Assembly: GCF_014656135.1 (NCBI RefSeq)
Contig: NZ_BNBV01000002.1
Coordinates: forward strand, 62,001-126,000
Reading direction: 5' to 3'
DNA length: 64,000 nucleotides
DNA from: Streptomyces thermodiastaticus
GTDB taxonomy: Bacteria > Actinomycetota > Actinomycetes > Streptomycetales > Streptomycetaceae
The notes beneath the pieces were generated by a model that saw only the letters and a list, made by a program, of their open reading frames with translations, ran no database searches and had not been told where the DNA came from. Shown piece after piece: positions 3,041 through 50,644 of the stretch; within the stretch, counting starts at the first letter, position 1; the number at the start of each line of letters is the position of its first letter. A program made the translations under genes and the position numbers.

Positions 3041-3119
3041 CGACGGCACCTGCGGCCCCCTTCTCAGCCGATGGTCACTCGGGGTCAGGATATGCCGCGG
3101 CGGCCGCCGCCCGGCGGGC

Positions 3120-3229: not shown

Positions 3230-5044
3230 GGCGTAGCCCTGCATGCCGCGCGGGTTGGCGGCGGCCGACAGCACGCCGGTGCGCGGGTCCCGGGCGACCG
3301 CGCACAGCCGGCCCTCCGACCACGGTTCGCCGACGGTGACGTCGTGGCCGCGACGGCGCAGCTCGGCGACGACGGCCGGGGCGAAGCGGGACTCGACGGT
3401 GATGCTGCCCGGACGCATGCCGCGCGGGTAGAACGACCCGGGGAAGGCGTCGTTGTGCCAGTTGGGGGCGTCGATGGCGCCTTGCAGGTCGAGGCCGCCG
3501 CGGACGGTCTCGCGCAGGGCGACGGCGAGGAAGAAGTGCACCTGCCACTGGTCCTGCTGGTCGCCGCCGGGGGTGCCGAAGGCCATCACGGGCACGCCGT
3601 CGCGCAGGGCGATCGACGGGGTGAGGGTGGTGCGCGGGCGGCGGCCGGGGGTGAGCGCGTTGGGCAGGCCCTCCTCCAGCCAGGTCATCTGCAGCCGGGT
3701 GCCCAGCGGGAACCCCAGTTCGGGCACGACCGGGTTGGACTGCAGCCAGCCGCCGCTGGGCGTGGCGGCGATCATGTTGCCCCAGCGGTCGACGACGTCG
3801 ATGTGGCAGGTGTCGCCGCGGGTGGCGCCGTCCGCGCCGACCTCGGGCTCGCCCGGCACCGGGGAGGCCGGGGACTTGGCGACGGTGGGCTCGCCGACGC
3901 CCAGGGCGTCGTAGGCGCCCGGGTCGGCGGCGGTGCGGTAGGCATGAGCGCTCAGCCGCGGGCTGCGTCCGCCGGGACTGCCGGGCCGCAGATCGTAGGA
4001 GGCCTTGTCCCCGATGAGGGTGCGCCGCTCGGCGTTGTACTGCTGGGACAGCAGCTCGGCCAGCGGCACCTCGGCGGCGTCTCCGTACCAGGCCTCACGG
4101 TCGGCCATGGCGAGTTTGCAGCCCTCGACGAGCAGGTGGACGTAGTCGGCGGAGCCGTACGGCGGCAGCTCGGGCGGCAGCAGGGCGAGCTGCTGCAGGA
4201 ACACCGGGCCCTGGCTCCAGGGGCCGGCCTTGCACACGGTCCAGCCGTTCCAGTCGTAGGTCACCGGTGTCTCGTAGGTGGCAGACCAGCCGGCGAGGTC
4301 GTCGGCGGTGAGCGTGCCGGTGTGGTGCTCGCCGCTGGTGTCCAGGGTGGGCCGCTGCGCCTGCCGGACGAGGGCCTCGGCGATGAAGCCGCGGCGCCAC
4401 ACCTCGCGGGCCGCCTCGATACGTGCCTGGCGGTCACCGGCGCCCGCGGTCTCGGCGAGCAGCCGCTTCCAGGTGGCGGCCAGCTGCGGGTTGCGGAACA
4501 GCTCGCCGGGGCGCGGCGGCCGGCCGCCGGGCAGGTAGATCTCGGCGGAGGAGGTCCATTCGGTCGCGAACAGCTCCCTGACCGTCTCGACGGTCATTCC
4601 GACCCGCTCCACGGGCGCGTGCCCGTGCTCGGCGTAGCCGATGGCGTACTTCAGCACGTCGGCGAGGTCCTTGGTGCCGTGGTCGCGCAGCAGGAGCATC
4701 CAGGCGTCGAAGGCGCCGGGGACGGCGGCGGCGAGCGGCCCGGTGCCCGGGACCAGGTCCAGTCCGAGCCCCCGGTAGTGCGCGACGCTCGCGCCGGCGG
4801 GGGCCACACCCTGCCCGCACAGCACCCGCACCTCGCCGCCGGCCGGGGCGAGCAGGATGGGCACCTCGCCGGCGGGGCCGTTCAGATGGGGTTCGACGAC
4901 GTGCAGCACGAAGGCGCCGGCCACGGCCGCGTCGTAGGCGTTGCCGCCGTCCTCGAGCACGGCCATCGCCGCCTGCGAGGCCAGCCAGTGGGTGGAGGAG
5001 ACCATGCCGAAGGTGCCCTGCAGGGTCGGACGGGTGGTGAACAT
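3218..5044 (-). CDS. Gamma-glutamyltransferase family protein (cytoplasmic type)
   Basis: A 608-residue Ntn-hydrolase of the gamma-glutamyltranspeptidase family. Such proteins are made as a proenzyme that self-cleaves before a catalytic threonine, then transfers or hydrolyses gamma-glutamyl groups. The expected nucleophile is the Thr of GDTCHIDVVDRWGN (about residue 410), followed by GTPGGDQQDQWQ near residue 500, which resembles the family's glycine-rich substrate loop. Conserved N-terminal features are HWLASQAAMAVLEDGGNAYDA. No signal peptide is visible, in contrast to the second family member at 20607-22430. The start at 5044 has a good ribosome-binding site (GAGGTGA, 8 nt upstream). The last codons lie in the 23-bp tandem array. 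It may act on gamma-glutamyl compounds other than glutathione. The substrate is not predictable. Confidence 0.9.
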   Translation of the reverse strand: MFTTRPTLQGTFGMVSSTHWLASQAAMAVLEDGGNAYDAAVAGAFVLHVVEPHLNGPAGEVPILLAPAGGEVRVLCGQGVAPAGASVAHYRGLGLDLVPGTGPLAAAVPGAFDAWMLLLRDHGTKDLADVLKYAIGYAEHGHAPVERVGMTVETVRELFATEWTSSAEIYLPGGRPPRPGELFRNPQLAATWKRLLAETAGAGDRQARIEAAREVWRRGFIAEALVRQAQRPTLDTSGEHHTGTLTADDLAGWSATYETPVTYDWNGWTVCKAGPWSQGPVFLQQLALLPPELPPYGSADYVHLLVEGCKLAMADREAWYGDAAEVPLAELLSQQYNAERRTLIGDKASYDLRPGSPGGRSPRLSAHAYRTAADPGAYDALGVGEPTVAKSPASPVPGEPEVGADGATRGDTCHIDVVDRWGNMIAATPSGGWLQSNPVVPELGFPLGTRLQMTWLEEGLPNALTPGRRPRTTLTPSIALRDGVPVMAFGTPGGDQQDQWQVHFFLAVALRETVRGGLDLQGAIDAPNWHNDAFPGSFYPRGMRPGSITVESRFAPAVVAELRRRGHDVTVGEPWSEGRLCAVARDPRTGVLSAAANPRGMQGYAVGR

Positions 5045-6449: not shown

Positions 6450-7514
6450 GTGCACGGTGAGTACAAGGTGCCCGGCGGCAAGCTGGTCGTCGTGGACGCG
6501 GAGGTGGAGGACGGCGTGCTGCGGCACGTCCGGGTGGCCGGGGACTTCTTCCTGGAGCCGGACGAGGCGCTGGACGCGCTGAACGGCGCGCTGGAGGGCG
6601 CCCCGGCGGACACCGACGCCGCGGGGCTGGCCGCGCGGATCGACGCCGCGCTCCCGCCGGGCGCGGTGATGTACGGGCTGACCTCGCAGGGTGTGGCCAC
6701 GGCGGTGCGGCGTGCGCTGGCTCAGGCCACCGACTGGACGGACTACGACTGGCAGCTGATCCACGAGGCTCCGCAGCCGCCCGCGCTGCACATGGCGCTG
6801 GACGAGGTGCTGACCGCGGAGGTGGCGGCCGGCCGGCGGCCGCCGACGCTGCGGGTGTGGGAGTGGGCCGCGCCCGCCGTGGTCATCGGCAGTTTCCAGT
6901 CGCTGCGCAACGAGGTGGACCTGCGGGCCGCCGCCCGGCACGGCATCACCGTGGTCCGACGCATCTCCGGCGGCGGCGCCATGTTCGTCGAGGCCGGGAA
7001 CACCATCACCTACTCGCTGTCCGTGCCCGCGCCGCTGGTGACCGGTCTGTCGTTCGCCGACTCCTACCGCTACCTGGACGACTGGGTGCTGTCCGCGCTG
7101 GGCGACATGGGCATCACAGCCTGGTACCAGCCGCTGAACGACATCGCCACCGAAGCCGGCAAGATCGCCGGTGCGGCGCAGAAGCGCATGGTCGGCACGG
7201 ACGGCGGTCCGGGTGCGGTCCTGCACCATGTGACGATGTCCTACGACATCGACGCCGACAAGATGCTCGACGTGCTGCGCATCGGGCGGGAGAAGATGTC
7301 CGACAAGGGCACGCGGTCCGCCCGGAAGCGCGTGGACCCGCTGCGGCGCCAGACCGGCCTGCCGCGCGAGCGCGTGATCGAGAACATGATCGAGTCGTTC
7401 CGTGCCCGGTACGGCCTGACCGCCGGCGGGATCACGCCGCAGGAGCTGGCCCGGGCCGAGGAGCTGGCGGCCACCAAGTACAGCAGCGAGGAGTGGACGG
7501 CGCGCGTGCCGTGA
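6450..7514 (+). CDS. Lipoate--protein ligase family protein
   Basis: A 354-residue protein of the LplA/BPL family. The N-terminal 85 residues (starting GEYKVPGGKLVVVDAEVEDG) resemble the small accessory domain that in LplA is usually C-terminal. The catalytic domain follows with the signature VVRRISGGGAMFVEAGN (lipoyl-AMP-binding RRxSGGGA) and IAGAAQKR containing the conserved lysine (KIAGAAQ). The enzyme would attach lipoate or a related carboxylate to lipoyl domains. Fold permutation or accessory-domain placement at the N-terminus is known in some actinobacterial members. The GTG start at 6450 has a weak GAAAGG site about 10 nt upstream. An alternative role is an octanoyl- or amidotransferase of the same superfamily. 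Confidence 0.9.
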   Translation: MHGEYKVPGGKLVVVDAEVEDGVLRHVRVAGDFFLEPDEALDALNGALEGAPADTDAAGLAARIDAALPPGAVMYGLTSQGVATAVRRALAQATDWTDYDWQLIHEAPQPPALHMALDEVLTAEVAAGRRPPTLRVWEWAAPAVVIGSFQSLRNEVDLRAAARHGITVVRRISGGGAMFVEAGNTITYSLSVPAPLVTGLSFADSYRYLDDWVLSALGDMGITAWYQPLNDIATEAGKIAGAAQKRMVGTDGGPGAVLHHVTMSYDIDADKMLDVLRIGREKMSDKGTRSARKRVDPLRRQTGLPRERVIENMIESFRARYGLTAGGITPQELARAEELAATKYSSEEWTARVP

Positions 7515-7699
7515 CCGGCGGTGCGGCGCACGGACATCCGGGACGGTCGGCCGGGACAGGCGCGGAGGCGACACAAGCGGACGGACGGGGCAGCCGGGTA
7601 CGGTTCGCCGCGACACCGCGCCGGTGGACGGGGGGTGGGCTCTTTCGCCGCACAGATACTCGTGTGACACTGTCGTCCCGTCCGCAGCGCGCGGACGCC

Positions 7700-26747: not shown

Positions 26748-26827
26748 TCGTCGCGCGCTTCGAGCTCCACGTCACCGACGCAGCCCCGTGCTGACTGCTC
26801 CGCGGCGGCCGGTGCGGCGAGCGGCCG

Positions 26828-27082
26828 TCAGCTCGCCGGCGGACCGTCGTGCAGGATCCGCTGGAACATGCGGTGATCCCGCCATTGCCCGTCGATGTGC
26901 AGATAGCGCGGAGCCATGCCGATGGGCTCGAATCCGTTCATCTCCAGCACGCGCTGCGACGGGGCATGGTCCAGGAGCGTGGTGGCCTCGATGCGGTGCA
27001 GGCCGATGATGTCGCGGATAGTACGGCAGACGCTCGCCACGGCCGCGTCGACCAGCCCCCGGTTCCGGCGGTCGGCGGCCAC
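26828..27082 (-). pseudogene. Truncated GNAT acetyltransferase (C-terminal fragment)
   Basis: Only the last 84 or so residues of a RimJ/RimL-type N-acetyltransferase remain, from VAADRRNRGL to the C-terminus HDGPPAS. By eye, 71 of 84 residues are identical to the C-terminal part of the complete gene at 48658-49218, and the DNA identity starts abruptly at the stop codon. The upstream half is replaced at about 27082 by the fragment of an HxlR regulator on the other strand. The acetyl-CoA-binding loop (RxxGxG/A region) is only partly kept. It is almost certainly non-functional. Confidence 0.9.
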
Positions 27083-31076: not shown

Positions 31077-31966
31077 GCGTTTTCTCCTTCGGGTTCGCGT
31101 CGTACGGTTTCGGCTCCCGCCGTGGCCGACGGTTCGGTTCGGCTTGGGGCCAGTGGCACTGTACGCGCGGCAACCGACGCGATGGCGAAGATCACCGCCC
31201 AGCCCAGCCACCCAGCAGAGCCTAGGTCCAGACTGACGCTGATCAAGGTAGGGCCGATCACGGTCGCCACACCGAACGCCAGATTGGACGTGGCCAGATA
31301 CGTGGACCGGTGGTCCTGCGGAGTGTGCACGAGCGCCAAACTGGTTCCGCCCGCCACGACGTAGATCTCTGCCCCGGTCATCAGCACCACCACGAGAACC
31401 GCGACGGCGATGGGAGCCCACCCACTACCCCAGACGGAGAGGGGAGCCACTGCGGCACCTGTTGCCGCCAGGATGCCGCCGCTGATCATCATGCGTCGGG
31501 CACGAAGCGGCGATTCCGAACCGCGGGCCGGTCTGGTCTGGAGAGCGACCACCAGAACGGTGTTGATCAGGTAGTTCGCACTGACGAGCCACGGTGGTAG
31601 GTCGGTCTGCTGGGTGATCCACAAGGCCATGCCCACGCCGAGAAGGACAGCCGAGAAGGTCAACGCGCCGTAGATCACGGTGACTCTCAGGAATGCGGCG
31701 TTGTCGACGAGCCGCGGTCGGCTGGCTCGTCGGACTACGACTTCTGCATCCTTGGGCAGACTCAAGGCGACGGCTGCGCAGGACAGGAAGATCACGGTCG
31801 CAGCAGCCATGACCGACCGGAATGCCCACTGATCGCCAATGGCGACGGCCGCGCCGGTCGGCAAGGCTCCTACAGCCATGCCGGCGTTTCGCAGGGCGCG
31901 CAACCTGGCCGGCGGCCCAACCGCGGCGGCCTGGTCCCGGCCCGTGATCAGTGCTGAGCTGATCCG
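31073..31966 (-). pseudogene. MFS transporter truncated by an insertion sequence
   Basis: The remaining 290 or so residues begin in mid-protein with RISSALITGRDQAAAV, then LRALRNAGMAVGALPTGAAV, which is the TM4-5 region of actinobacterial MFS exporters. They continue through the last eight or so helices to a normal C-terminus. The first four helices and the start codon are absent. The homology stops where the remnant IS5-type element begins (near 31967). A TTG at 31903 could act as a start, but the product would lack half of the N-terminal domain. Confidence 0.85.
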
Positions 31967-32811
31967 GGTTTGAAACTCGGGACAGCTCAGTATTGTCGTA
32001 GCGGGTGGCGATACCGCGCCACTGCTTCAGGCGGTTGATGCACCGCTCGACGGTGTTGCACTGCTTGTACACCTCCTGGTCGAAGGCCGGTGGCCTGCCA
32101 CCGGCCTGTCCGTGCCGCTTCCGGTTGGCCTGCTGGTCGGCCCGTTCCGGGATCACCGCCCGGATGCCGCGTCTGCGCAGATGACACGGATCTCGCGGGA
32201 GGAGTGGCCCTGTCGGCCAGGACCACGTCCGGTCTGGTGCGCGGACGACCGCGCCGGCGGGGAACGCGCAGGCGGGTCATCACCTCGGTGAAGGCAGGTG
32301 CGTCACCGGCCTGACCGGCGGTGAGTTGGAAGGCCAGAGGCCGGCACCGGCCGTCGGCGACAAGGTGGATCTTCGTGGTCAGTCCGCCGCGGGAGCGGCC
32401 GATGGCGTGGTCACGCGGCTCGTCGGCCGGGGCCCCCTTTTCACGGGCCCCGGCCGCGTGCTGGTGGGCCCGCACGATCGTGGAGTCCACCGATACGGCC
32501 CACCTGACGTCCTCGTCGGCGTCGGCCTGGGCCACCAGGGCGGTGAACACCCGCTCCCACGTGCCATCGACGGCCCACATCCGCAGCCGGTTGTACACGC
32601 CCCGCCAGTTGCCGTACTTCTCCGGCAGGTGCACCCACTGGGTGCCGGTCTGGAACTTGTAGGCGATCGCGTCGATCACCTCACGATGGTCCCGCCAGCG
32701 GCCACCCCGCTTCGGCGTCCGGTCCGGGAGCAACGGCTCGATCCGCGCCCACTGCGCATCAGTCAACGGCACACCCAGACCAACGACCGACTGACCCGGA
32801 CGAAACTGCCT
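31967..32811 (-). mobile_element. Degenerate IS5-family insertion sequence
   Basis: This is about 845 bp with a broken transposase gene. Candidate ends are GTTTGAAACTCGGGACAG (near 31968) and CTGACCCGGACGAAACTGCC (near 32791-32810), which share an imperfect inverted core (CTG-CCCG and AAACT). The exact boundaries and any target duplication could not be fixed. The left end abuts the truncated MFS gene, showing that insertion or a later deletion removed the MFS 5' half. Confidence 0.65.
31985..32772 (-). pseudogene. IS5-family DDE transposase, frameshifted
   Basis: The frame starting VPLTDAQWARIEPLLPD (GTG near 32772) carries KFQTGTQWVHLPEKYGNWRG, the first DDE Asp in VSVDSTIVRAHQHA, and LTTKIHLVADG followed by the second Asp region VVLADRA. 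After VVLADRA the sequence needs two one-base corrections, near 32205 and 32180, to continue into AVIPERADQQANRKR and NTVERCINRLKQWRGIATRYD, which holds the catalytic Glu. The C-terminal 15-20 residues are also lost. The enzyme is therefore inactive. Confidence 0.85.
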
Positions 32812-40259: not shown

Positions 40260-40445
40260 ATGTCCGACAACACCGCTGCGGTACTGTCCGCCATCGACAG
40301 CGACAAGGCGCTGCGTTCGGCGGTCATCCGGCACCTCGCCACGACCCACGCCCACGAGTTCGTCGGTCCGCTGCGCGCCGAGTTCCGCGGCAACGACGAC
40401 ATCGCCCTGGCGTCGGTCAACTCCAACAAGGAGTGGCAGGAGTAA
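40260..40445 (+). CDS. Candidate RiPP precursor peptide (61 residues)
   Basis: A small acidic/basic peptide beginning MSDNTAAVLSAIDSDKALRS and ending DDIALASVNSNKEWQE. The N-terminal 45 or so residues look like a helical leader (AVLSAIDSDKALRSAVIRHL). The C-terminal 15-20 residues are polar and contain Asn, Ser, Asp, Trp and Gln but no Cys. The ribosome-binding site GGGAGAGG lies 5-9 nt upstream. The gene opens a cluster encoding MNIO, YcaO, TfuA and carbamoyltransferase proteins, all of which act on peptides or small molecules, and it is separated from them by a hairpin. I infer it is the substrate. The leader-core boundary is unknown, and no sequence family was recognised. Confidence 0.75.
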   Translation: MSDNTAAVLSAIDSDKALRSAVIRHLATTHAHEFVGPLRAEFRGNDDIALASVNSNKEWQE

Positions 40446-40453
40446 TACCTGGT

Positions 40454-40483
40454 CCGGCCGGGTCTCGTCAGGGATCCGGCCGG
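40454..40483 (+). terminator. Hairpin between the precursor gene and the modification operon
   Basis: Two copies of the self-complementary CCGGCCGG at 40454-40461 and 40476-40483 can form an 8-bp stem around a 14-nt loop, 8 bp after the precursor stop. Such elements often attenuate readthrough, giving more precursor than enzyme transcript. The absence of a T tract leaves the strength uncertain. Confidence 0.55.
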
Positions 40484-40525
40484 CTCTTCCGACAGGACAT
40501 CCCTCGATCGAACGGCGGTAGGTCC

Positions 40526-41290
40526 TTGCGCACCCTTTCTTCCGGCGTGACGCAGGCACTCCTGTTGCGCGACGACAGAGAGGCCCGTACGGAGTTGCTG
40601 CTCCGCCTGCTGTACTCCAAGAGCTCCGCGGACGTGGTCGCCGATGCGCTGAAAGACCCCTCCGGCAGGATGTGCGAAGCAACGGCGTCCGTTCTTTCCA
40701 CCATCGATTTCCACGCCCTGGAGGTCGAGCGAAGCGCCCGTCTGCGCAATCTGAACCGTCATCTGCAACGCACGTGCCCGCCTCTGTGGGATTGCGTCGA
40801 AGCGGAAACGATCACTCCGCTCGTCGAGGCCTACGCGGACTCCGATGCTTTCTGGCAGAGCGCCGGTCGCACCCTGTTCGAGAATTTCTGTCTGTTCGCC
40901 CACAGGACCGTCGCCGGGCAGTCCCAGCTGCTCGCGGACGTCTTTCAGCTGTTCGGCCTCGTGAGCCGCTTCTCCGCTCCCGAGTTGATCGCGCCTCCCG
41001 AGGACGTGTGTGCCTGCACGACCGGTATTCCGGGAGAGGGCATGGATCTGGCGAAGGCCGCCTTCTCCCCCTGGGACGACGGCGGACTGATCCCCCCGCA
41101 CGTTCCGGACGCCCTCCAGACCGAGTCGTTCCGCTCTGCCTGGCGCCTCGTGGACGAGCGCGGGCGGCTGCCGCGCTCCCTCGACCCCGACGCCCTCGGT
41201 GACCCCGGTGACTACCAGATCGTTGTCGCCGCCTTCCCCGGCCGCAAGGTGTCCGCCGCGGCCCTTCCGCTCTCAGGCAGGTGCGCATGA
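40526..41290 (+). CDS. Unknown RiPP cluster protein, possible MNIO partner
   Basis: A protein of about 254 residues that I do not recognise with certainty. The middle part (about residues 50-125) reads SIDFHALEVERSARLRNL (with a Thr before it), then LQRTCPPLWDCVEA and FENFCLFAH, with alternating hydrophobic and basic helices. This resembles the N-terminal helical domain of the partner proteins encoded next to DUF692/MNIO enzymes (HvfC/TglI type). Nine or so cysteines are present, several as pairs (VCACTTG). It overlaps the MNIO gene as ATGA, so equal expression is likely. The start is taken as the TTG at 40526, which has GGTAGG upstream; a GTG at 40547 is the alternative. It could recruit the precursor to the MNIO. 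Confidence 0.65.
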   Translation: MRTLSSGVTQALLLRDDREARTELLLRLLYSKSSADVVADALKDPSGRMCEATASVLSTIDFHALEVERSARLRNLNRHLQRTCPPLWDCVEAETITPLVEAYADSDAFWQSAGRTLFENFCLFAHRTVAGQSQLLADVFQLFGLVSRFSAPELIAPPEDVCACTTGIPGEGMDLAKAAFSPWDDGGLIPPHVPDALQTESFRSAWRLVDERGRLPRSLDPDALGDPGDYQIVVAAFPGRKVSAAALPLSGRCA

Positions 41291-42186
41291 CGAAAGAGAA
41301 GAAGGACCCCGTCGGCCTGCTCGGCTTCGGACTCGACTGGCAGTACCGCGACAGCTACCCGCAGAAGATGCCGGACCTGTGCGCCCGGTACGCCGGCCGG
41401 CTCAGCCATCTGTCCTGTGTCTCCCTGCCCAGCGCCGCCGACGCGCAGACCTTCGTGGACGAGTGCGCCGGCGACCTGCCTGTGGTGCACCACCTGCCGG
41501 GCGTGGCACCCGCAGCGCCCGGCGGCCCCAACATGGAGCTGTTCACCCGCCTCGAGGCGGTCAGCGACGTGCTGGGTGCCGTGTGGACCTGTGAGGACAT
41601 CGGCCTGTGGTCGATCGGCCCGTACCCGCTGCCGTACTTCACCCCTCCGCTCTTCGAGCGCGAGATCGCCGACCATGTCGTCGACGGCATACGCCGCATG
41701 CAGGAGGTCAGCCGTTACCCCTTCGTGCCGGAGATCCCGTCCTGCACCCTCGCCGTGGGCCGTATGAGCCTCGGCGAGTTCTTCCATCGCGTCACCGACG
41801 GCGCCGACTGCGACCTGCTGCTGGACGTCGCGCATGTCTTCTCGTACGCCGTCGCCGTGCGGCAGCCCTACGAGGACGTGCTCCGCTCGCTTCCGCTGGA
41901 CCGGGTGGTGGAGATCCATGTGGCGGGCGGTTACATCGACCCGACCTTCGACAACCGGTACCTGGACACCCACAGCCACGCCGTGACCCCGGCCGTCATC
42001 GACCTGCTCCAGGAGGCGGTCGCCCACGCGCCGCGGCTGCGCGCCGTCACCTACGAGATCGGGGTGGGTCTCGGGGCCGACGAGCTGGACAGCGACTTCG
42101 AGCGCATCGAGAACCTGCTGGCGGAGGTCGGGTGGACCCCGTCCATCTCCCGTCCGTCCGGCCTGGCCACGGCAGGTACCGCATGA
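41287..42186 (+). CDS. DUF692/MNIO-type multinuclear iron oxidase
   Basis: A 299-residue TIM-barrel protein of the DUF692 family (multinuclear non-haem iron-dependent oxidases such as MbnB, TglH and ChrH, which rewire residues of RiPP precursors). Segments that line up with family motifs are VVHHLPGV (metal His), TCEDIGLWSIG, PEIPSCTLAVG, CDLLLDVAHVFSYA (Asp), VVEIHVAGGYID (Glu and His) and LDTHSHAV (two His). Compared with common members it has AGG in place of AGH and lacks the C-terminal EWD motif (reads TYEIG), so it is a divergent member. The ATG at 41287 overlaps the preceding stop, and the fusion gene follows with another ATGA overlap. Confidence 0.82.
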   Translation: MTKEKKDPVGLLGFGLDWQYRDSYPQKMPDLCARYAGRLSHLSCVSLPSAADAQTFVDECAGDLPVVHHLPGVAPAAPGGPNMELFTRLEAVSDVLGAVWTCEDIGLWSIGPYPLPYFTPPLFEREIADHVVDGIRRMQEVSRYPFVPEIPSCTLAVGRMSLGEFFHRVTDGADCDLLLDVAHVFSYAVAVRQPYEDVLRSLPLDRVVEIHVAGGYIDPTFDNRYLDTHSHAVTPAVIDLLQEAVAHAPRLRAVTYEIGVGLGADELDSDFERIENLLAEVGWTPSISRPSGLATAGTA

Positions 42187-45100
42187 CACACGCACAGCAG
42201 CCCGCCTCGCCGCCGTGGTCCGTACTGAGCCCGGAACCCGACCGCGGCGCCGGGCTCGGGGAAGGCGTACGTGTCCTGGTCGTCTCGGACGGCACTCCCG
42301 CGCCCGACGGCGACGGGATGCCCGACGCGCACACGGAGCGGGTCGCCGGACTGTGCCGGCAGCTGGCCGGCCGGGCGGAGATCGGTTACGCCTCGGCCGC
42401 ACGGCTGAGGGCCCGCAGCCTCGCCGCCGACCTGCGTGCGATGGTCACGGCGGACGGCGGCTGGGACATCGTGGCCATGCCGTGGTCGTCGCCCGAGCGT
42501 GACGCGGAACGGCTCAAGGTGCGGCGGGCCTTCGAGGAGGTGGCCCGGGACCCGGACATGCCGCTGTTCGTCGCCGCTGCCGGACACGACGGACCGGGAC
42601 GGCTCAGGTTCCCCGCCTCCTGCCCCTCCGTGCTCGCCGTCGGGGTCGGCTCCGACCACGGCGGACCGACGGCCTACTGCGGCACGGACGGCCTGGGCCG
42701 CAAGCCTCAGCTGCTGGTCCCGGACGCCCGCTACGCCACCCGCTGCGCGGCCGGCCCCGCTCCCATGCGCGGCACCTCCGCCGCCGTCGGCATCGTCGCC
42801 GGACTCGCCGCCGTACTCGCACAGCGGCTGGGGAGCGACGGACGCCGGGTGCCCTCGCCGCTGCTGCGTGCCGCGCTGCTGGCCTCCGCCGGGCCGGACG
42901 GAACGCTGGTGGGCACGCCGCTGCTGCGGCAGCCGGGGACCGGTGCCGCAGAACCGTTCTGCTTCGAGCTGCCCGCCGCAGCCGCCCGGCTGCGGCTGCG
43001 CCTGAGAACCGGCGCGGACACCGTTCGGATCGCAGCCGTCGCCGCGGGCGCGGACGAGGTCGTCAGCGGGGACACCGCCCCGTTGTGGCTGCCGCGCGCC
43101 GCCGAACTCTCCGTGACATGGGCGGCGGACGGCACGACCCGGCGGACCACCGGCGCCGGGTGGCTGGTGCTCGATGTCGCATCCGGCGCCGGGCGTGACA
43201 CGGTGATCACCCTGGAGTGCCCGGAACCGGTCACCGCCTATGTCGCCGTCGGCGGCGCCGAGGCCGTGGAGCGGATCGACCCTCGCCTCGAGAAGACCGA
43301 CGAGCCCGGCGTGACCGCTCCGGCGTGGCGGGCCGGCACCGGCCGTCCCGTCGTCCTCGGCCTGTCGGCCAGCCATGACGCCTCCGCCTGCCTGCTGCGC
43401 GACGGCAGCCCGCAGGTCGCCGTGCAGCAGGAGCGGGTCACCCGCCGGAAACACGACGGAGTCGGCCACCTCTCCTCCCGTGCGGCCGCCGACTACTGTC
43501 TCACCTCGGCCGGCCTGACCGCCGACGACGTGGACGTCTTCGCCTTCAACGCACAACCGCTGCTGCCTGGTTACGTGGGGCTGTCGGTGCCGTCCGCGGC
43601 GCAGTCGTTCGACCTGTTCGACCCCTTCGACGCGCGCACCGTCTACGTCTCGCACCACCTCGCCCACGCCTTCTCCGCGTTCTGGGGCTCGCCCTTCGAG
43701 GAGGCCGTGGTCGTCGTCTGCGACGGCTCCGGAGGCTCGGTGCTCGGCACGGACGACCTCCTGGTGGACGGTCCCGGACTGCGGGAGTACCTCGCGCGGG
43801 GGCCCGAGGACCGGCTGCCGCGCATCCACGTCTTCTCCGTCTACCACTTCGACCGGGACGGCTACCGGCTGCTGTTCCGCGAGTGCGCCGACTCCTTCAA
43901 CGTCCGCGTCGGCTCCTCCTCGATCGGCGAGACCTATGCGGCCGTGAGCCAGTACGTCTTCGGCGACTGGCAGGAGGGCAGCGGCAAGCTGATGGGCCTC
44001 GCCCCCTGGGGGAAGGCCCGCAACGCCGGCCCCAGCCTGCTGGAGCCCGGCCCGCACGGCCTGCCCCGCTTCCGCAGCGACTGGAAGGACACCTATCGCG
44101 CCCCCGGCTCCGGCGGCCCGATGGACCACGCCGATCTCGCGGCCCGGATCCAGGCCGACCTCGAAGAGGCACTGGTGGCTCGCATGCGGTACGCCATGTC
44201 TCTGGTGCCCGGCTGCCGCAACCTCGCCTACGCGGGCGGCGTCGCGCTCAACTCCGTGGCCAACGACCGCATCGCCCGCGAGAGCGGAGCCGACCGCTTC
44301 TTCGTGTTCCCGGCGGCGAGCGACGCCGGGGTCTCCCTGGGCGCCGCCGCAGCCGCGCACTACCGGCTCACCGGCTCGACCCGGCGCCGGCAGGTCCCCT
44401 ACGACGACTACCTGGGACACCCGTACACCCAGGACGACCACGACGCGGCCATCGGGCTGGTCGGCGACCGGGTGGTCACCGAGCCGCTGGAGCTGGAGGC
44501 CGTGGCGGACCGGATCGCCGCGGGCGACGTCGTCGGCTGGTTCCAGGGCGGATCGGAGTTCGGGCCACGCGCCCTGGGCCACCGGTCGGTCCTCGCCGAC
44601 GCCAGGAGCCGCGACACCTGGGACTTCATCAACGCGCACATCAAGTTCCGGGAGGACTTCCGCCCACTGGCGCCCATCGTGCCCGAGGAGGTCGCCGCCG
44701 AGTACTTCGACCTCGACGAGCCCTCTCCGCACATGCTGCGGGTGGTCCCGGTCCGCGAGAAGTACCGTGAGCAGCTCGCTGCCGTCACCCACGTCGACGG
44801 CACCGCCCGGGTGCAGACCGTCTCGCGGGACATGAACCCGCGCATCCACGAACTGCTCCATCTCGTCGGCGCACGCACCGGTTTCCCCGTCCTGGTGAAC
44901 ACCTCGCTCAACCGCCGTGGCGAGCCCATGATCGAAACGCCCGGCCAGGCACTCGACATGCTGTTGGGCACGCGGCTGAGCGCCATGGTGCTGGGCGACC
45001 GTGTGGTCCGTCGCGCCCCCGAGAACGAGGCACCGCTCACCCTGCGCTCCCGGCTCGTCCTCGCCCCCGGCGTGCGGCTGCGGTGGGAACAGGACTGCGA

Positions 45101-45326
45101 GGGCAGCCGTTCGTGGATCACCGGCGGCGCCGAACCGGCCGGCCTCGAGCTGCCGAGGTGGGCGTTCGACGCCCTGTCCCGGGCCGAGCCCGGCCGTGCC
45201 CTCGGCGACTACCTGCCGGACTGCCTGGTCTCCGCACAGGGCGGCACCGACACGGCGCTGGCCTTCCTGACCGCGCTCCGTGCCCGCTGCCTGCTGGTGG
45301 TCACCCGGGAGGCAGTGCATGACTGA
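42183..45326 (+). CDS. Fusion: subtilisin-like domain + carbamoyltransferase + RRE-like C-terminus
   Basis: A 1047-residue protein with three parts. Residues 25-220 resemble an S8 peptidase: Asp36 in VLVVSDG, His50 in DAHTERVAG and Ser199 in MRGTSAAVGIVAGL. The oxyanion Asn position reads AAGHDG, and the Asp-His spacing is short, so activity is uncertain. A beta-rich linker follows (about 240-385). Residues 390-950 are a NodU/CmcH carbamoyltransferase: LGLSASHDASACLL, SHHLAHAFSAFWGSPF, GKLMGLAPWGK, GGVALNSVAN, GGSEFGPRALGHRSVLAD and VNTSLNRRGEPM. The last 95 residues (VRLRWEQD, ITGGAEPAGLELPRWAFDAL) resemble a PqqD/RRE peptide-binding wing. It would carbamoylate a hydroxyl of the peptide and might also cleave the leader. 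The ATG overlaps the MNIO stop as ATGA. Confidence 0.85.
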   Translation: MTHAQQPASPPWSVLSPEPDRGAGLGEGVRVLVVSDGTPAPDGDGMPDAHTERVAGLCRQLAGRAEIGYASAARLRARSLAADLRAMVTADGGWDIVAMPWSSPERDAERLKVRRAFEEVARDPDMPLFVAAAGHDGPGRLRFPASCPSVLAVGVGSDHGGPTAYCGTDGLGRKPQLLVPDARYATRCAAGPAPMRGTSAAVGIVAGLAAVLAQRLGSDGRRVPSPLLRAALLASAGPDGTLVGTPLLRQPGTGAAEPFCFELPAAAARLRLRLRTGADTVRIAAVAAGADEVVSGDTAPLWLPRAAELSVTWAADGTTRRTTGAGWLVLDVASGAGRDTVITLECPEPVTAYVAVGGAEAVERIDPRLEKTDEPGVTAPAWRAGTGRPVVLGLSASHDASACLLRDGSPQVAVQQERVTRRKHDGVGHLSSRAAADYCLTSAGLTADDVDVFAFNAQPLLPGYVGLSVPSAAQSFDLFDPFDARTVYVSHHLAHAFSAFWGSPFEEAVVVVCDGSGGSVLGTDDLLVDGPGLREYLARGPEDRLPRIHVFSVYHFDRDGYRLLFRECADSFNVRVGSSSIGETYAAVSQYVFGDWQEGSGKLMGLAPWGKARNAGPSLLEPGPHGLPRFRSDWKDTYRAPGSGGPMDHADLAARIQADLEEALVARMRYAMSLVPGCRNLAYAGGVALNSVANDRIARESGADRFFVFPAASDAGVSLGAAAAAHYRLTGSTRRRQVPYDDYLGHPYTQDDHDAAIGLVGDRVVTEPLELEAVADRIAAGDVVGWFQGGSEFGPRALGHRSVLADARSRDTWDFINAHIKFREDFRPLAPIVPEEVAAEYFDLDEPSPHMLRVVPVREKYREQLAAVTHVDGTARVQTVSRDMNPRIHELLHLVGARTGFPVLVNTSLNRRGEPMIETPGQALDMLLGTRLSAMVLGDRVVRRAPENEAPLTLRSRLVLAPGVRLRWEQDCEGSRSWITGGAEPAGLELPRWAFDALSRAEPGRALGDYLPDCLVSAQGGTDTALAFLTALRARCLLVVTREAVHD

Positions 45327-46596
45327 CCTGGACGACCGTATGACCGACCTGGACGACACGCCGCGCACGCACGCTCTGGCGTGGCTGGAGAACACGACCG
45401 ACGACGCCACCATGCTGCCGTGCGGCACCTCGCACCGGTCGGTGCCTGCGGCCGATGCCGTCGCCAAGGTGTGGCCGCTGCGCCACCGCCTCGGCATCAG
45501 CCGCGTCACGGACCTCACCCCGCTCGACGTCGTGGGCATCCCCGTCTTCAGCGTGACCCGGCCTCAGGCCCGCACCGGGCAGATCACTCTCTGCCAGGGA
45601 AAGGGCAACACACCTGTGGAAGCCCTCGCCTCCGCGCTGTTCGAGGCGGTGGAGCGGCACTGCGGTTCCCTGGCCCGCCCCACACTGACGGCCCGGCCGA
45701 CCGAGCTGCGGGCCGCCGGCCGCACCCACCTGACCGCGGCGGACCTGGGCCTGGCCGAGCCTGTGCCCGATCAGCCGATCGAGTGGATCCAGGGCCGGGA
45801 CAGCAGGACCGGCAGCCCCGTGCTGCTGCCCGCCGCCGAGGTGATCTTCCCGTACACCGCGCCGCCCGGCTGTCTGCGGCCGGTACGCCCGAGCACCACG
45901 GGCCTGGCCTCCGGCGCCACGCTGAGCGAGGCGGTGCTGCATGCGCTGTACGAGGTCGTCGAACGCGACGCCACCTCGCGGTACCTGCACGGCGGGCCGG
46001 GCCGGCTGGTCGCCCTCGACACGGTGACCGGATCCGCCGAGACGGAACTGCTGCGCAAGTACGCCAGGGCCGAGATCGACACGGTCGTCATCGACCTCAC
46101 CCACACCACTGTGCTGCCCACGTTCGCGGTGTTCCTGTCCGACCCGGGTGCCGCCCAGGCCCACCTGGCGGTGTCCGGTTTCGGTACACACCCCAACGCG
46201 GGCGTCGCCCTGCGCCGCGCCCTGACGGAGGCCTCGCAGGCCCGTGCCACCGCCATCCAGGGCAGCCGGGAGGACCTCGACCGCGTCGCCGAGGTCTACC
46301 GCGCCGACCCCGCCGAGCAGCGGGCTGCGTTCCTGCACCGCGCCCTGCAGGCGAAGGCGGAAGGCGTCACCGACATGAGCACGCTCCCCGCCCTGCCGCC
46401 GCGGTCGACACGCGACACACTGCGGCACGTGGCCGCGCTGCTGGAAGAAGGCGGCTACGACCGGGTCGTGCACACCGATCTGACCGTCCCGGAACTCGGT
46501 CTGCCCGTCGCCCATGTGGCGGTGCCCGGCATGGTCGACTCCGTCGTGGAACCCCTCAGGAGCCATCGTGTGGCCCATCAGCACGTCCAGGCTTAG
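45319..46596 (+). CDS. YcaO-type peptide backbone-activating enzyme
   Basis: A 425-residue YcaO protein that uses ATP to activate backbone amides. Typical segments are GKGNTPVEALASALFEAVER (ATP/Mg-binding Glu residues), STTGLASGATLSEAVLHALY with EVVERDA, and FGTHPNAGVALRRALTEASQ. The C-terminus ends HQHVQA and lacks the PxPxP motif of azoline-forming YcaO enzymes, as is usual for those that work with TfuA in thioamide formation. Two in-frame copies of MTDLDD occur at the start; the ATG at 45319 has GGGAGG 8 nt upstream and overlaps the fusion gene by 8 bp. The TfuA gene starts 29 bp before its stop. Thioamidation of the precursor backbone is the expected reaction. Confidence 0.92.
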   Translation: MTDLDDRMTDLDDTPRTHALAWLENTTDDATMLPCGTSHRSVPAADAVAKVWPLRHRLGISRVTDLTPLDVVGIPVFSVTRPQARTGQITLCQGKGNTPVEALASALFEAVERHCGSLARPTLTARPTELRAAGRTHLTAADLGLAEPVPDQPIEWIQGRDSRTGSPVLLPAAEVIFPYTAPPGCLRPVRPSTTGLASGATLSEAVLHALYEVVERDATSRYLHGGPGRLVALDTVTGSAETELLRKYARAEIDTVVIDLTHTTVLPTFAVFLSDPGAAQAHLAVSGFGTHPNAGVALRRALTEASQARATAIQGSREDLDRVAEVYRADPAEQRAAFLHRALQAKAEGVTDMSTLPALPPRSTRDTLRHVAALLEEGGYDRVVHTDLTVPELGLPVAHVAVPGMVDSVVEPLRSHRVAHQHVQA

Positions 46597-47350
46597 GCCC
46601 ATCGTCTTCGGCGCGGCGTCGGTACGTCCCCTCGACCCCGCGCTGCTGGCAGCGGTCGACCTGCGGCCTCCGGTCCGGCGCGGGGACCTGCTTCCGCTGC
46701 TGGACGGCGATCCCGGCACCGTGGTCCTCGTCGACGGACTGTTCGGCGGCACGATGGCCGTCACCCCGACGGAGTGCCGTCAGCTGCTCGACGCCGGCTG
46801 GACGGTGGTCGGCTGCTCCAGCATGGGCGCCCTGCGCGCCGCCGACCTGTGGCCGCTCGGCGCGATCGGCATCGGTGACATCTTCACCCTGTACCGGCTG
46901 GGCACGCTGACCTCCGACGCGGACGTCGCCGTCGCCCTGGACCCGGACGACGGCCATCGGGAAGTGACCGTGTGCACGGTGCACGTCCGGGCCGTGCTCG
47001 CGGCCGCCGTCGAGGCGGGTCTCATCGCCCCCGCCCAGCGGGCCCGGCTCGCCCGTGCCGCCGAGGGCATCCACTGGTCCCAGCGGTCCTGGACGGCCTG
47101 CCGGGCGGTGTGGAGCGAGCTGGGAGTCGCCCCCACGGTGCTCTCCTCACTTCTGCGGCTCGGCAGGGAACCCCGGCTGCACCCCAAGGTGCGCGACGCC
47201 GAGACCTGCCTGCGCGCTGTCCTGGCCGGCGACTGGCTCGGCGACGGGGCCACGGACACACGCCGCTGTCCGGCCTGCCAGAAACCACTGACGGCAGGAA
47301 TGCTGTTCTGTTCCGTCTGCGTCTCCGAGGCGCACGAGACCTGCCTGTGA
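46568..47350 (+). CDS. TfuA-domain protein with C-terminal zinc ribbon
   Basis: A 260-residue protein. Residues 10-130 are a TfuA domain: VVLVDGLFGGTMAVTPTE, VVGCSSMGALRAADLWPLGA and GDIFTLYRLG are clear family motifs. The middle is helical. The C-terminal 35 residues carry CPACQKPL and MLFCSVC, a four-cysteine zinc ribbon not usual for TfuA proteins. TfuA proteins assist YcaO in backbone thioamidation, probably by delivering sulfur. The zinc ribbon may help in protein contact. The GTG at 46568 has AGGAG 7 nt upstream and overlaps the YcaO gene by 29 bp, so the two are coupled. Confidence 0.88.
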   Translation: MWPISTSRLRPIVFGAASVRPLDPALLAAVDLRPPVRRGDLLPLLDGDPGTVVLVDGLFGGTMAVTPTECRQLLDAGWTVVGCSSMGALRAADLWPLGAIGIGDIFTLYRLGTLTSDADVAVALDPDDGHREVTVCTVHVRAVLAAAVEAGLIAPAQRARLARAAEGIHWSQRSWTACRAVWSELGVAPTVLSSLLRLGREPRLHPKVRDAETCLRAVLAGDWLGDGATDTRRCPACQKPLTAGMLFCSVCVSEAHETCL

Positions 47351-47405
47351 GGACCACCCGCGGCACGGCGGTCCGGCACGAAGGCCATGAAGGGAACCAC
47401 CAGGA

Positions 47406-48725
47406 ATGCTGACGTCGATGGCCCGCCGGCTCGGGCTGCGCACCACCGGGCCGGCCGAGCGGAGGCTGCTGACGACCGTCGCGATCGATGCGACGGGCGG
47501 TGGCCTGTTCCTGGCCGGCGCGACACTGTTCTACTCGCGTGTGGCCGGGCTGTCCGACGCGCAGATCGGCATCGGACTGTCCGTGCTGGGCATCGTCGCC
47601 CTCGCCGCGACCGTTCCCAACGGCCTCCTGGTCGACCGGATCGGTCCCCGGCATGCGCTCGTCGTGCTGCATGTGTGGCGCGGGGTGTGGTGCTGTGCTC
47701 TGGCCTTCGTGCACTCGTTCTGGCAGTTCCTGACCGTGCTGGTGCTGCTGGGGCTGGCGGAGCACGCCGGAATGCCGGCTCTTCAGGCGTACGTGGGTTC
47801 TGCGTTCGGTGACACCGAGCGCGTCGGTGTCATGGCCCGTGTGCAGGTGCTGAAGAACGCCGGTTTCCTGGTGGGCGCCCTGCTGGCGGCGGTCGCCGTG
47901 GGAAGCGGCACGGACGCGGGGTACCGGGCACTGCTGCTGGGCGACGGGGTGTCGTTCTTCGTGGCCGCCGTGCTGATGACGACCGTACGCAACGTCTCGG
48001 CCGTCCGCGACAGGAGCGTGCGGCGTTCGGCGCTCGGTCCGTTGAGGAACGCCAAGTTCGCTCTGCTGACCTGCTGCAATGGCATACTTCAGCTGAATCT
48101 GTCGGTGCTGGTGATCGGTATGCCGCTGTGGGTGTCCCGAGCCACCGAGGCGCCTCCGGCCGTCGCCCCCCTGCTGATCGCGATCAACACCGTGATCGCC
48201 ATCTCTCTGCAGGTACCGCTCAGCGCGGGAGCCGAGACCGTTCCGGGTGCCGGCCGCCACATGCTCCGGGCGGCATTGTCCTTCGCCCTGATGTGCGGAA
48301 CGCTGATTCTCGCGTCCTGGGCTCCGTCCGCTCTGGCCGCGGCGCTGATGGTGATGTCCGTCGTCCTGCACACGCTGGGCGAGATCTGGCACTCCTCCGG
48401 TGGCTGGGGGCTCCAGTTCGCGCTGTCCCCCGATGCCGAGCGCGGCAACTACGCCGCCGCCTACAGCCTGGGACCTACCGCGGAGGGAATGGTCGGACCG
48501 TCGCTGATCGCCGGCGGAGTGGTGGCCGCGGGTTCCGTCGGCTGGGCGGCTCTGGCTCTGCTCTTCCTGGCCGCCGGTCTGGGCGCGCGGTCCGTGGCCC
48601 GTCGAGCGGTGCCGCGGACCGCCGCGCACGCTGCGCCCGTCGGCGCAACCGCAGAGGTCAGCTCGCCGGCGGACCGTCGTGCAGAACCCGCTGGAACAGA
48701 CGATGATCCCGCCATTCCCCGTTGA
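47406..48725 (+). CDS. MFS transporter of the RiPP cluster
   Basis: A 439-residue 12-TM major-facilitator protein. Helix 1 reads TVAIDATGGGLFLAGATLFY, followed by SDAQIGIGLSVLGIVALAA and motif A-like NGLLVDRIGPRHALVVLH. The C-terminal tail (about residues 395-439) is hydrophilic and ends in a frame that overlaps, on the other strand, the 3' end of the acetyltransferase gene by 68 bp. It begins 55 bp after the TfuA gene and probably exports the mature peptide or gives self-resistance. The ATG at 47406 is preferred, with GAAGGG about 12 nt upstream; an ATG at 47418 is possible. Confidence 0.88.
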   Translation: MLTSMARRLGLRTTGPAERRLLTTVAIDATGGGLFLAGATLFYSRVAGLSDAQIGIGLSVLGIVALAATVPNGLLVDRIGPRHALVVLHVWRGVWCCALAFVHSFWQFLTVLVLLGLAEHAGMPALQAYVGSAFGDTERVGVMARVQVLKNAGFLVGALLAAVAVGSGTDAGYRALLLGDGVSFFVAAVLMTTVRNVSAVRDRSVRRSALGPLRNAKFALLTCCNGILQLNLSVLVIGMPLWVSRATEAPPAVAPLLIAINTVIAISLQVPLSAGAETVPGAGRHMLRAALSFALMCGTLILASWAPSALAAALMVMSVVLHTLGEIWHSSGGWGLQFALSPDAERGNYAAAYSLGPTAEGMVGPSLIAGGVVAAGSVGWAALALLFLAAGLGARSVARRAVPRTAAHAAPVGATAEVSSPADRRAEPAGTDDDPAIPR

Positions 48726-49218
48726 TGTGCAGATAGCGCGGAGCCATGCCGATCGGCTCGAAACCGTTCTTCCGCAAGACGCGCTGTGACGGGGCGTTGT
48801 CGAGGAGCGTGGTGGCCTCGATGCGGTGCAGACCGATGGTGTCGCGGGCCACGCGGCACACACTCGCCACAGCCGCGCTGGCCAGTCCGCGGTTCTGCCG
48901 ATCGGCGGCCACCCAGTAACCCAGGTAGGCACTGCAGAAGGGGCCGAAGGCCATTCCGGAGAGCGTGATCGTGCCGATGATGGTGCCGTTGCTGTCGAGC
49001 ACCCAGGGCACCGCACGCCGTTCCGAGAGCTGCCGCAATTGCTCGCCGATACGCTCGGCCTGACCCTCGACGGTGAAAAAACTGTCCGGGCGGCGCGGTT
49101 CCCACGGAGCCAGATGCTCCCGGTTCGCCACATATGCGGAATGCAATGCTTCTGCATCCTCGGGCGTAACGAGCCGCAACCGGACACCGTCGGACAGTAT
49201 ATCAGGAGAAACAATCAC
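48658..49218 (-). CDS. GNAT acetyltransferase (RimJ/RimL type)
   Basis: A 186-residue GCN5-related N-acetyltransferase. N-terminal VRLRLVTPEDAEALHSAYV and ITLSGMAFGPFCSAYLGYWV lead into the acetyl-CoA-binding VAADRQNRGLASAAVASV. HRIEATTLLDNAPSQRVLRK and GFEPIGMAPRYLHINGEWRD are typical of RimJ/RimL-like enzymes. It would acetylate an amino group of a peptide, protein or small molecule; with the adjacent genes, modification or inactivation of the RiPP is likely. The GTG start at 49218 is 4 bp after the oxygenase gene on the same strand. The 3' end overlaps the convergent MFS gene. A truncated relative lies at 26828-27082. Confidence 0.9.
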   Translation of the reverse strand: MIVSPDILSDGVRLRLVTPEDAEALHSAYVANREHLAPWEPRRPDSFFTVEGQAERIGEQLRQLSERRAVPWVLDSNGTIIGTITLSGMAFGPFCSAYLGYWVAADRQNRGLASAAVASVCRVARDTIGLHRIEATTLLDNAPSQRVLRKNGFEPIGMAPRYLHINGEWRDHRLFQRVLHDGPPAS

Positions 49219-49222
49219 TCGG

Positions 49223-50644
49223 TCACTCTAGCGCGTACAGCAGATGCGCATCGACAAGCGCTTGGCACAGTTCCAGCCGCTCCGGTTCGTCCAGCGCGAA
49301 GGAAAGCTCCTCGGGCGTGAACTCCCAGCACCCCGCGACGAACCGCATCACTTTCTCGTAGGAATTGGGCATACTCACCGAGCGGCGGCCGAGAACCGCG
49401 TAGATGCGCCGGGTCGCGGGCTGTGCGAAGAGCGCGCACGGCACAGTTTTCCGCCGCCGCAGCCGCGTCGTGTCCAGGACACCGAGAACACCGAGCGCGG
49501 AATCCGTCTCGAAAGCGCCGGGAATCCTGTCCGTGAGCTGCGTCAGGAAGGTCTGCAGATGTGCGGAGCGCACTTGTTCGGGCTCCTGGCGCACGAACGC
49601 CGCCCGGGCTTCCGTCAGGAACCGCTCGGCCGCCTCGTGCAGCACGCTGCCGTCGTGCAGCCAGCCCACGGGCAGCTCGGCGTCCAGGAGTTCCGCAGGA
49701 AGGCTGTCCTCGACGAGCCGGGACAGCGTCGTCCGCAGCACCTCGCGCCAGGAGTTGGACTCGATGCTGACGGTGACATGCCCCGACCGGGCGCTCAGGG
49801 TGTTCGCGCGATGCGGAGTCCCCTTCGGGAGATACAGCACGTCGCCGGGGCGCAGCAGCAGTTCACGGGTCTCGTCGGGGTCGTCGCTCGAGCGGCCGTT
49901 GCGCCGCTCCCACGGCGTCGCTCCCACGTGCCACTGCTTCTCACCGAACGCCTGGAGCACGAAGACGTCGTGCGGATCGGTGTGCAGCCCGAATCCCTGA
50001 GACGAGACCGGTGTGAGATAGATGTTCGCCCGGCAGCGGCGGCCCAGGGCAAGTTCGAGAGACCGGCAGAACTCGGTCAGCGGCGGGTGGTACCAGTGCG
50101 CCGACTGGAGGATCAGAGTGGCTCCGCCACGCACGGCGGCCGTGACCTCCGCGGCACTTGCGACGCCCCGGGTCAGCATCTCCAGAAGAAGCTCGTTCTC
50201 CGTCATCTCGTGGTCGACGGGCCGCGGATAGATCTCCCGCATCGATCTGAGATAGGCCTGCCGCGGAAGAATCTCGCCGTGCCGCACGAGACGTATCATG
50301 TCGGAACGCAGCAGGGGCTGATCGCTGAGCAGTCGGTCGATGTCCTGCACATTGATGAGATCGCTGGCTGGTACACCACCACTGGTGACATGCACCCGCT
50401 TTCCCCAGACGTCGGCTGTGAATTCCTTCTCGTCACCGGTACAGCGGCGAAGTGCCGCCGCATCGACCGGCAGCATTCGAGCGGCCTGATCGGCTTCCTT
50501 GTCATCGTGAATCGGAACCAATGGCTCCTTCTGACCGCGCAGTGCCGCGGTGTTGATGATTCGGACCCTCGGCGGCTTTCGATCACTGGTGATCATGCCG
50601 CAACCGTACCGTGGCCTGGTAATGCACACCAGACCCCGTGACAC
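49223..50644 (-). CDS. JmjC/cupin-type 2-oxoglutarate-dependent oxygenase
   Basis: A 473-residue protein of the cupin_4/JmjC group (ROXA/YcfD-like hydroxylases of peptides or proteins). The iron site is visible: HTD in GFGLHTDPHDVFVLQAFG (about residue 218) and the distal His in LPKGTPHRANT (about 285). EKQWHVG with a tryptophan is typical of this group. A C-terminal winged-helix-like region follows (about 330-470), as in ROXA proteins. Hydroxylation of the RiPP precursor or of a ribosomal protein is possible; the adjacent location favours the precursor. The GTG at 50644 is preferred for its AAGGGG site 7 nt upstream; the ATG at 50596 has no clear site. GC content is lower at the 5' end. Confidence 0.88.
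   Translation of the reverse strand: MSRGLVCITRPRYGCGMITSDRKPPRVRIINTAALRGQKEPLVPIHDDKEADQAARMLPVDAAALRRCTGDEKEFTADVWGKRVHVTSGGVPASDLINVQDIDRLLSDQPLLRSDMIRLVRHGEILPRQAYLRSMREIYPRPVDHEMTENELLLEMLTRGVASAAEVTAAVRGGATLILQSAHWYHPPLTEFCRSLELALGRRCRANIYLTPVSSQGFGLHTDPHDVFVLQAFGEKQWHVGATPWERRNGRSSDDPDETRELLLRPGDVLYLPKGTPHRANTLSARSGHVTVSIESNSWREVLRTTLSRLVEDSLPAELLDAELPVGWLHDGSVLHEAAERFLTEARAAFVRQEPEQVRSAHLQTFLTQLTDRIPGAFETDSALGVLGVLDTTRLRRRKTVPCALFAQPATRRIYAVLGRRSVSMPNSYEKVMRFVAGCWEFTPEELSFALDEPERLELCQALVDAHLLYALE

Follow-up and report, generated by a model that had tools for sequence, protein, structure and literature searches.

The closest described relative of the locus considered here is the std cluster of Streptomyces thermodiastaticus JCM 4840, which directs a ribosomally synthesised and post-translationally modified peptide (RiPP) and the enzymes of which were reconstituted in vitro by Hebron, Shriver, Ziarek and Rosenzweig (bioRxiv, 2026-05-05; PMC13174530). 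According to the text of that preprint, the cluster encodes a precursor (StdA), a partner protein containing a RiPP recognition element (RRE) (StdD), an MNIO (StdE), a peptidase S8/S53 joined to a NodU-like carbamoyltransferase (StdF), a YcaO protein (StdG), a TfuA protein (StdH) and an MFS permease (StdI). With the S. thermodiastaticus proteins an asparagine thioamide was formed, a lysine was converted to homocitrulline with removal of the sequence EWQE, and bis-hydroxylation was carried out by the MNIO (PMC13174530). The preprint leaves open what the mature product is, which protease cuts off the leader and what the activity is, and its text names Pseudomonadota, Actinomycetota and Myxococcota as std taxa (PMC13174530). 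The locus analysed here occupies positions 40260-50644 of a 64,000-nucleotide stretch of S. thermodiastaticus DNA (contig NZ_BNBV01000002.1, positions 62,001 to 126,000), referred to throughout as the window. It is very probably a std-type RiPP cluster, in which Asn56 of the precursor would become a thioamide, Lys57 would become homocitrulline as EWQE is cut off, and a double hydroxylation would follow, with a JmjC oxygenase and a GNAT acetyltransferase likely to finish the peptide.

Correspondence with the std pathway

The StdA-type precursor gene (40260..40445, plus strand) encodes 61 residues without a family match and ends in SNKEWQE, in which Asn56 and Lys57 precede the follower EWQE. On the same strand there follow an StdD-type MNIO partner (40547..41290, its GTG start picked by conservation), without a Pfam or NCBIfam match; an StdE-type MNIO/DUF692 oxidase (41287..42186; PF05114, 4.4e-26); an StdF-type S8 peptidase fused to a NodU-like carbamoyltransferase (42183..45326; PF16861, 9e-64; PF02543, 3e-29); an StdG-type YcaO (45319..46596; PF02624, 1.5e-67); an StdH-type TfuA protein (46514..47350; PF07812, 1.1e-32), the gene for which starts between 46514 and about 46577 and overlaps the YcaO gene; and an StdI-type MFS permease (47406..48725; PF07690, 1.3e-24). 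From the partner to TfuA, consecutive frames overlap or abut. The subtilase part of the StdF protein matches PF00082 at 1.6e-4 and 21.6 bits, slightly short of the 21.8 cut-off, and retains His50 and Ser199 of the catalytic triad, with Asp36 as a candidate third residue. All the genes listed in an earlier, sequence-only reading of this DNA were found in place, most of them with family support. An identical gene set in the same order occurs in S. eurythermus, at 82-97% protein identity, and because the order is conserved there the arrangement is not one of chance.

The window carries the following marks of std membership: a precursor ending in SNKEWQE, an MNIO of the StdE kind with its partner gene directly upstream, YcaO together with TfuA, and an MFS permease. 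Its likeness to the JCM 4840 cluster extends to Asn56-Lys57 of the precursor and to the S8-carbamoyltransferase, and no difference was found in the set of genes listed for that cluster (PMC13174530). C-terminal to Arg43 of the window precursor there remain 18 residues, within which the two core positions become Asn13 and Lys14; this length and numbering are those used in the preprint (PMC13174530). The same numbering also fits P0053, a database peptide (95%), and the precursor of S. eurythermus, so that by itself it is no proof of strain identity. Since nothing that was compared separates the core cluster of the window from the published one, the core cluster is already known, and the proposal that it was undescribed, with no characterised RiPP having this set of families, falls with the match to std (PMC13174530). 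Among the papers listed from the open-licence literature (MNIO, homocitrulline, RiPP), there was by title no second one on such a cluster.

It is proposed that YcaO and TfuA would first thioamidate Asn56 of the 61-residue precursor, that the S8-carbamoyltransferase fusion would then N-carbamoylate Lys57 to homocitrulline and cut off the follower, and that the MNIO with its partner would hydroxylate the homocitrulline residue twice. These three steps were demonstrated in vitro with S. thermodiastaticus proteins, as distinct from the window's proteins (PMC13174530). The leader would be removed by a protease, the JmjC protein would hydroxylate a further core residue, the GNAT would acetylate the freed peptide N-terminus and the MFS protein would export the product. 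The in vitro work bears out, for the std orthologues, much of what had been predicted from the window's letters: that this is a RiPP cluster, that YcaO and TfuA install a backbone thioamide, and that MNIO and carbamoyltransferase act on a single peptide (PMC13174530). It corrects the chemistry in other respects, as the std carbamoyl target is the lysine epsilon-nitrogen instead of an oxygen, and the std MNIO performs two C-H hydroxylations instead of an oxidative rearrangement (PMC13174530). The subtilisin-carbamoyltransferase fusion had been recognised, but its role was missed, the subtilisin part going with removal of the C-terminal follower. That the window enzymes nevertheless use other residues or another order, for example with O-carbamoylation or an MNIO rearrangement, is very improbable: only homology connects the measured chemistry with the proteins of the window, yet the C-terminal motif is the same as that of the preprint, the residue numbering fits, and the core tripeptide has no Cys, the target of the rearranging MNIOs named in the introduction to the preprint (PMC13174530).

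A second oxygenase and an acetyltransferase

Beyond the MFS gene, on the minus strand, lie genes for a JmjC_2 oxygenase of the MINA53/NO66/YcfD group with an HTD...H motif (49223..50644; PF08007, 4e-24; PDB match 2xdv, 1e-19) and a RimJ-type GNAT acetyltransferase (48658..49218; PF13302, 4e-23; NF008072, 6e-27, under its cut-off). The JmjC gene comes first, 4 bp separate the two in the window as in S. eurythermus, and the GNAT gene overlaps the 3' end of the MFS gene by 68 bp. The sequence-only reading had called them a convergent pair; both are indeed present, but they share the minus strand and converge only jointly, upon the main operon. StdB, StdC, a JmjC protein and an acetyltransferase are not mentioned in the text of the preprint, though they could still appear in its Figure 2A or Table S1 (PMC13174530). 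Hydroxylation of a further core residue is a guess drawn from the relationship of JmjC_2 to the protein hydroxylases MINA53, NO66 and YcfD, and the JmjC protein is a plausible additional tailoring enzyme. RimJ-type GNATs acetylate N-terminal amines, and the GNAT is placed as an N-acetylating step because leader removal leaves a free N-terminal amine; N-terminal acetylation of that kind occurs in the goadsporin and microviridin pathways.

Eight loci were compared, namely the window and those of S. eurythermus (L006, of which L005 is a duplicate), S. barringtoniae (L007), Streptacidiphilus pinicola (L008), a Sandaracinus metagenome-assembled genome (MAG; L009), a Deltaproteobacteria MAG (L010), Burkholderia sp. 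TSV86 (L011, incomplete) and a plasmid of Piscinibacter gummiphilus (L012). A tblastn match to the partner protein lies directly upstream of the MNIO in all seven other loci, and tblastn matches to the MFS permease occur in the four streptomycete loci, with none in L009-L012. A GNAT gene is present in six of the eight, being missing from L010, on whose contig there is no PF13302 match, and from L011. A second oxygenase occurs in seven: JmjC_2 in the window, S. eurythermus and Streptacidiphilus (3/4 streptomycete loci), DUF6445 in L009-L012, and neither in S. barringtoniae. In the Sandaracinus locus a JmjC_2 gene is present as well, about 2.5 kb past the one for DUF6445. The JmjC proteins of the window and of Streptacidiphilus are only 29-30% identical and may have been recruited separately. 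An HxD motif, a later His and a later Arg are kept in 4/4 DUF6445 sequences, a pattern that we take to be a mark of 2-oxoglutarate-dependent oxygenases and from which DUF6445 would appear to resemble one; no paper on DUF6445 was found in the open-licence literature.

One might suppose that the JmjC and GNAT genes have no connection with the cluster they adjoin and that this ends at the MFS gene, as the text of the preprint has it by naming A and D-I only, with no acetyltransferase or JmjC (PMC13174530), and neither gene is indeed found in all eight loci. This explanation is improbable in view of how often the families recur, the GNAT and the second oxygenase being spread across Actinomycetota, Myxococcota and Pseudomonadota, and of their arrangement, as an oxygenase gene followed by an adjacent GNAT gene on one strand is common to four of the eight loci and three lineages (window, L006, L009 and L012), with the 4-bp spacing shared by the window and S. 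eurythermus. The DUF6445 and GNAT genes are 85 bp apart in Sandaracinus and overlap by 8 bp in Piscinibacter. Genome-wide there are 14, 23, 22, 35 and 4 PF13302 matches in five genomes, and 10 and 9, none of them at the locus, in G395 and G396; DUF6445 matches number 0-3 per genome or record, the third row for G395 being a further part of a gene already counted. For a member of one of these families to lie within 20 kb, the chance is 0.2-8% per genome (GNAT, 4.5-8% in the streptomycetes and 0.9% in Sandaracinus; DUF6445, 0.3-0.6%; JmjC_2, 0.2-0.7%), and the figure for the GNAT in two lineages, with the four streptomycetes counted as one and the plasmid not counted, is 7e-4.

A more serious alternative is self-protection, in which the GNAT would render the peptide inactive once released, or a ribosomal target would be modified by the pair. 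RimJ-type GNATs and JmjC proteins of the MINA53/NO66/YcfD type are best known for modifying ribosomal proteins, the MccE acetyltransferase confers immunity to microcin C, and the window GNAT has PDB sequence matches to RimJ (3igr) and, weakly, to MccE (3r95, 9.7e-5); moreover, in the window the pair is a separate unit on the minus strand, outside the biosynthetic operon. In Piscinibacter, however, the GNAT gene lies within that operon, behind TfuA and DUF6445, and the use of a different oxygenase family in other phyla would fit a step on the substrate better than one on the ribosome. Self-protection is accordingly regarded as rather unlikely for the pair, and for the GNAT taken singly, tailoring is favoured with moderate confidence over immunity.

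Several observations weigh against the reading of the locus as a std-type cluster whose peptide is finished by this pair. The JmjC and GNAT steps are predictions from the comparison of loci. There is no JmjC_2 match in the S. barringtoniae genome, the only DUF6445 copy of which is on another contig, and the contig of L010 carries no GNAT, so that neither a GNAT nor a second oxygenase is strictly required. The in-cluster GNAT of Sandaracinus matches that of the window at 1.7e-16, compared with 1.7e-24 for a gene elsewhere in the genome; it may have been recruited separately, and because the better match lies elsewhere, orthology of the GNAT across phyla is not established, a point that also speaks for unrelated neighbours. 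DUF6445 has no sequence match in the PDB, and its structural model is poor (mean pLDDT, the predicted local distance difference test, 35.5). Finally, the comparison of the window with the std cluster covered gene set, motif and numbering, and falls short of proving that the two are identical. A fold assignment for DUF6445 was given up, the model being too poor for a structure search.

Precursors, followers and peptidases

The window precursor is 97% identical to that of S. eurythermus and 72% identical to that of S. barringtoniae. Nine precursors were found in the eight loci, with the core SNK in seven, SAK in one (the second tandem gene of L009) and SGK in one (L010). Two tandem precursors, with an SNK and an SAK core respectively, lie at L009:8850-9276 in Sandaracinus, and P0057/P0062 and P0058/P0061 in the database are of the same two kinds. 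The follower reads EWQE, EWQD or DWSE everywhere but in L010 (SGK-VDPNG) and L012 (SNK-ARQKPW), the precursors of which are related to each other (17/37 residues identical). The text of the preprint gives the Trp position as 100% conserved among 97 orthologues (PMC13174530), from which it follows that the L010 and L012 precursors were outside the 97 or not counted there.

The His and Ser of the StdF subtilase are kept in the window and in L006-L009, that is in 5/5 loci in which StdF accompanies an EWQE-like follower. Of the 37 database proteins aligned, 35 keep them as well, P0091 having no His region and P0113 no domain. The alignment took in 37 of 50 database matches, the 13 under 850 aa being left out, and some of the 37 are locus proteins themselves (e.g. 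P0070, P0075 and P0076). The column of Asp36 holds Ala in Streptacidiphilus, which makes the Asp assignment less sure. In L010 and L012 both His and Ser are lost, and these losses may represent one event. StdF and YcaO form one fused frame of about 1440-1480 aa in the same two loci (L010:2916-7346 and L012:9218-13534), and fusions are also found among the database proteins (P0088, P0089, P0093, P0095 and P0101-P0104, and P0113 without the peptidase). A link between this fusion and peptidase loss was considered and rejected, as 8/9 fused database proteins keep His and Ser, P0113 being the one without the domain.

Both L010 and L012 carry a gene for an ABC transporter that has a C39 peptidase domain, in which Gln, Cys, His and Asp stand in what is presumably the order of the C39 motif, and this transporter is a candidate for the leader protease of their branch. 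In L012 the transporter gene lies at 1032-3704, its C39 domain covering about residues 1-140, and the precursor gene at 7356-7529. The database precursor P0066 (FGGEGG-WSNKEWQE) has a double-glycine site directly before the core. Around the window cluster six genes encode regulators, an MFS protein, a SWIM protein and an SNF2 helicase, with no leader protease among them. Two genes for TAP-like (tripeptidyl-aminopeptidase-type) hydrolases lie just past the GNAT gene of S. barringtoniae (L007:17833-20896).

A wider scheme can be put forward tentatively, and is somewhat less probable than its negation. The std product would be an intermediate, which a cross-phylum finishing module, consisting of JmjC_2 or DUF6445 swapped by lineage and then a RimJ-type GNAT, would hydroxylate and N-acetylate, and a divergent branch would have replaced EWQE, lost the StdF protease and come to use the C39 transporter peptidase for its leader. 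The core chemistry, comprising enzymatic homocitrulline, its C-H hydroxylation by an MNIO and Asn thioamidation, is unusual yet published (PMC13174530). What is new here is the oxygenase-acetyltransferase pair, the variant followers with changed StdF and the C39 peptidase in two variant clusters. L010 and L012 supply two naturally occurring precursor/StdF pairs in which a changed follower goes with a changed protease, and the naming of candidates for the open std questions of extra tailoring and leader protease makes these questions directly testable.

Distribution and relation to known systems

Database matches to the MNIO (E <= 1e-20, n=52) fall into 47 at E <= 1.7e-50 and the next at 1.7e-25, so that the std group is set apart by a gap of 25 orders. 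In genome samples, which count the window's or the centre's own genome, an MNIO at E <= 1e-40 was found in 1/296 genomes of the phylum sample and in 1/399 of the order of the Burkholderia locus, in each case the centre only; in the phylum of the Sandaracinus locus an MNIO was found in 2/282 genomes, with std in one (the centre). The genus sample gave four of 392 genomes at 1e-20, two of them std, and the family sample two of 394 at 1e-60. From these low counts it follows that the std cluster is rare. An MNIO (P0018) and an StdF protein (P0086) that both bear the name Nostoc sphaeroides, each with 42,048 bases given for the longest contig, suggest a cyanobacterial std cluster; no relative was found on viral contigs. 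A Myxococcota locus (G1295/L024/L025; MNIO 7.5e-44, 34% identity) was rejected as std, there being no other std gene within 20 kb, and two loci from the genus search (L003 and L004, MNIO matches of 31-33%) were not counted, as only the MNIO was matched in 3.6-3.7 kb. Nor was the Burkholderia locus accepted as a full cluster, its contig ending 1.3 kb past the MNIO. The frame in its StdF position (L011:10840-12111) runs into a stop after 52 residues, and the genome yielded no StdF fusion, the best StdF match being a 39% carbamoyltransferase on a different contig. ThiF-type genes, which fit a supply of sulfur for the thioamide, occur in at least 3/8 loci (L007 and L011, with rhodanese domains; L012, annotated MoeB).

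Further genes lie near several of the loci. At 26827-27082 (minus strand) of the window there is a fragment of a second GNAT/MFS 3'-end pair, which shares 85.5% DNA identity with 48657-48912; its GNAT frame is broken further upstream, and the fragment has the look of a remnant from a duplication of the cluster end. About 4 kb from this relic, at 31157-31981 (minus strand), is an MFS frame with some 31% identity to the cluster permease. Genes for a radical SAM protein, an ATP-grasp ligase (LAL_C2) and a JmjC_2 protein adjoin the Sandaracinus cluster (L009:17254-20436) and may serve further tailoring or belong to another cluster. Downstream of L008, about 2.4 kb past the Streptacidiphilus GNAT, a second carbamoyltransferase (39%) is encoded at G393:C89:17157-18836 (G393 and G1422 denote a single place). 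A related type of cluster may be signalled by P0105-P0107, streptomycete carbamoyltransferases of some 670 aa (54-57% identical) that lack a peptidase domain.

With respect to other families, the MNIO falls under the NCBIfam equivalog cut-offs for bufferin (74/310 bits), HvfB (66/360), ApyH (65/400), ChrH (34/600) and MbnB (22/325), and the StdF fusion under that for the cyanobactin PatA/PatG maturation protease (TIGR03895; 33.8/421 bits). Carbamoyltransferases fused to RREs are mentioned in general terms in passages of PMC12710340, and carbamoyl, TfuA and EWQE are absent from the text passages of an MNIO landscape paper (PMC12452194). In NCBIfam, the YcaO and TfuA proteins match best to the McrA-glycine thioamidation system (TIGR03266, 4e-65, and NF033432, 8e-40), yet both are under the curated cut-offs, and the substrate there is McrA whereas here it would be a RiPP precursor. 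RimJ and the microcin C acetyltransferase MccE share the GNAT family with the window protein, the MccE match being weak. The JmjC_2 domain with its HTD...H motif is shared with the ribosomal oxygenases MINA53, NO66 and YcfD, and unlike these the window protein is encoded in a RiPP cluster, 4 bp from the gene for an acetyltransferase.

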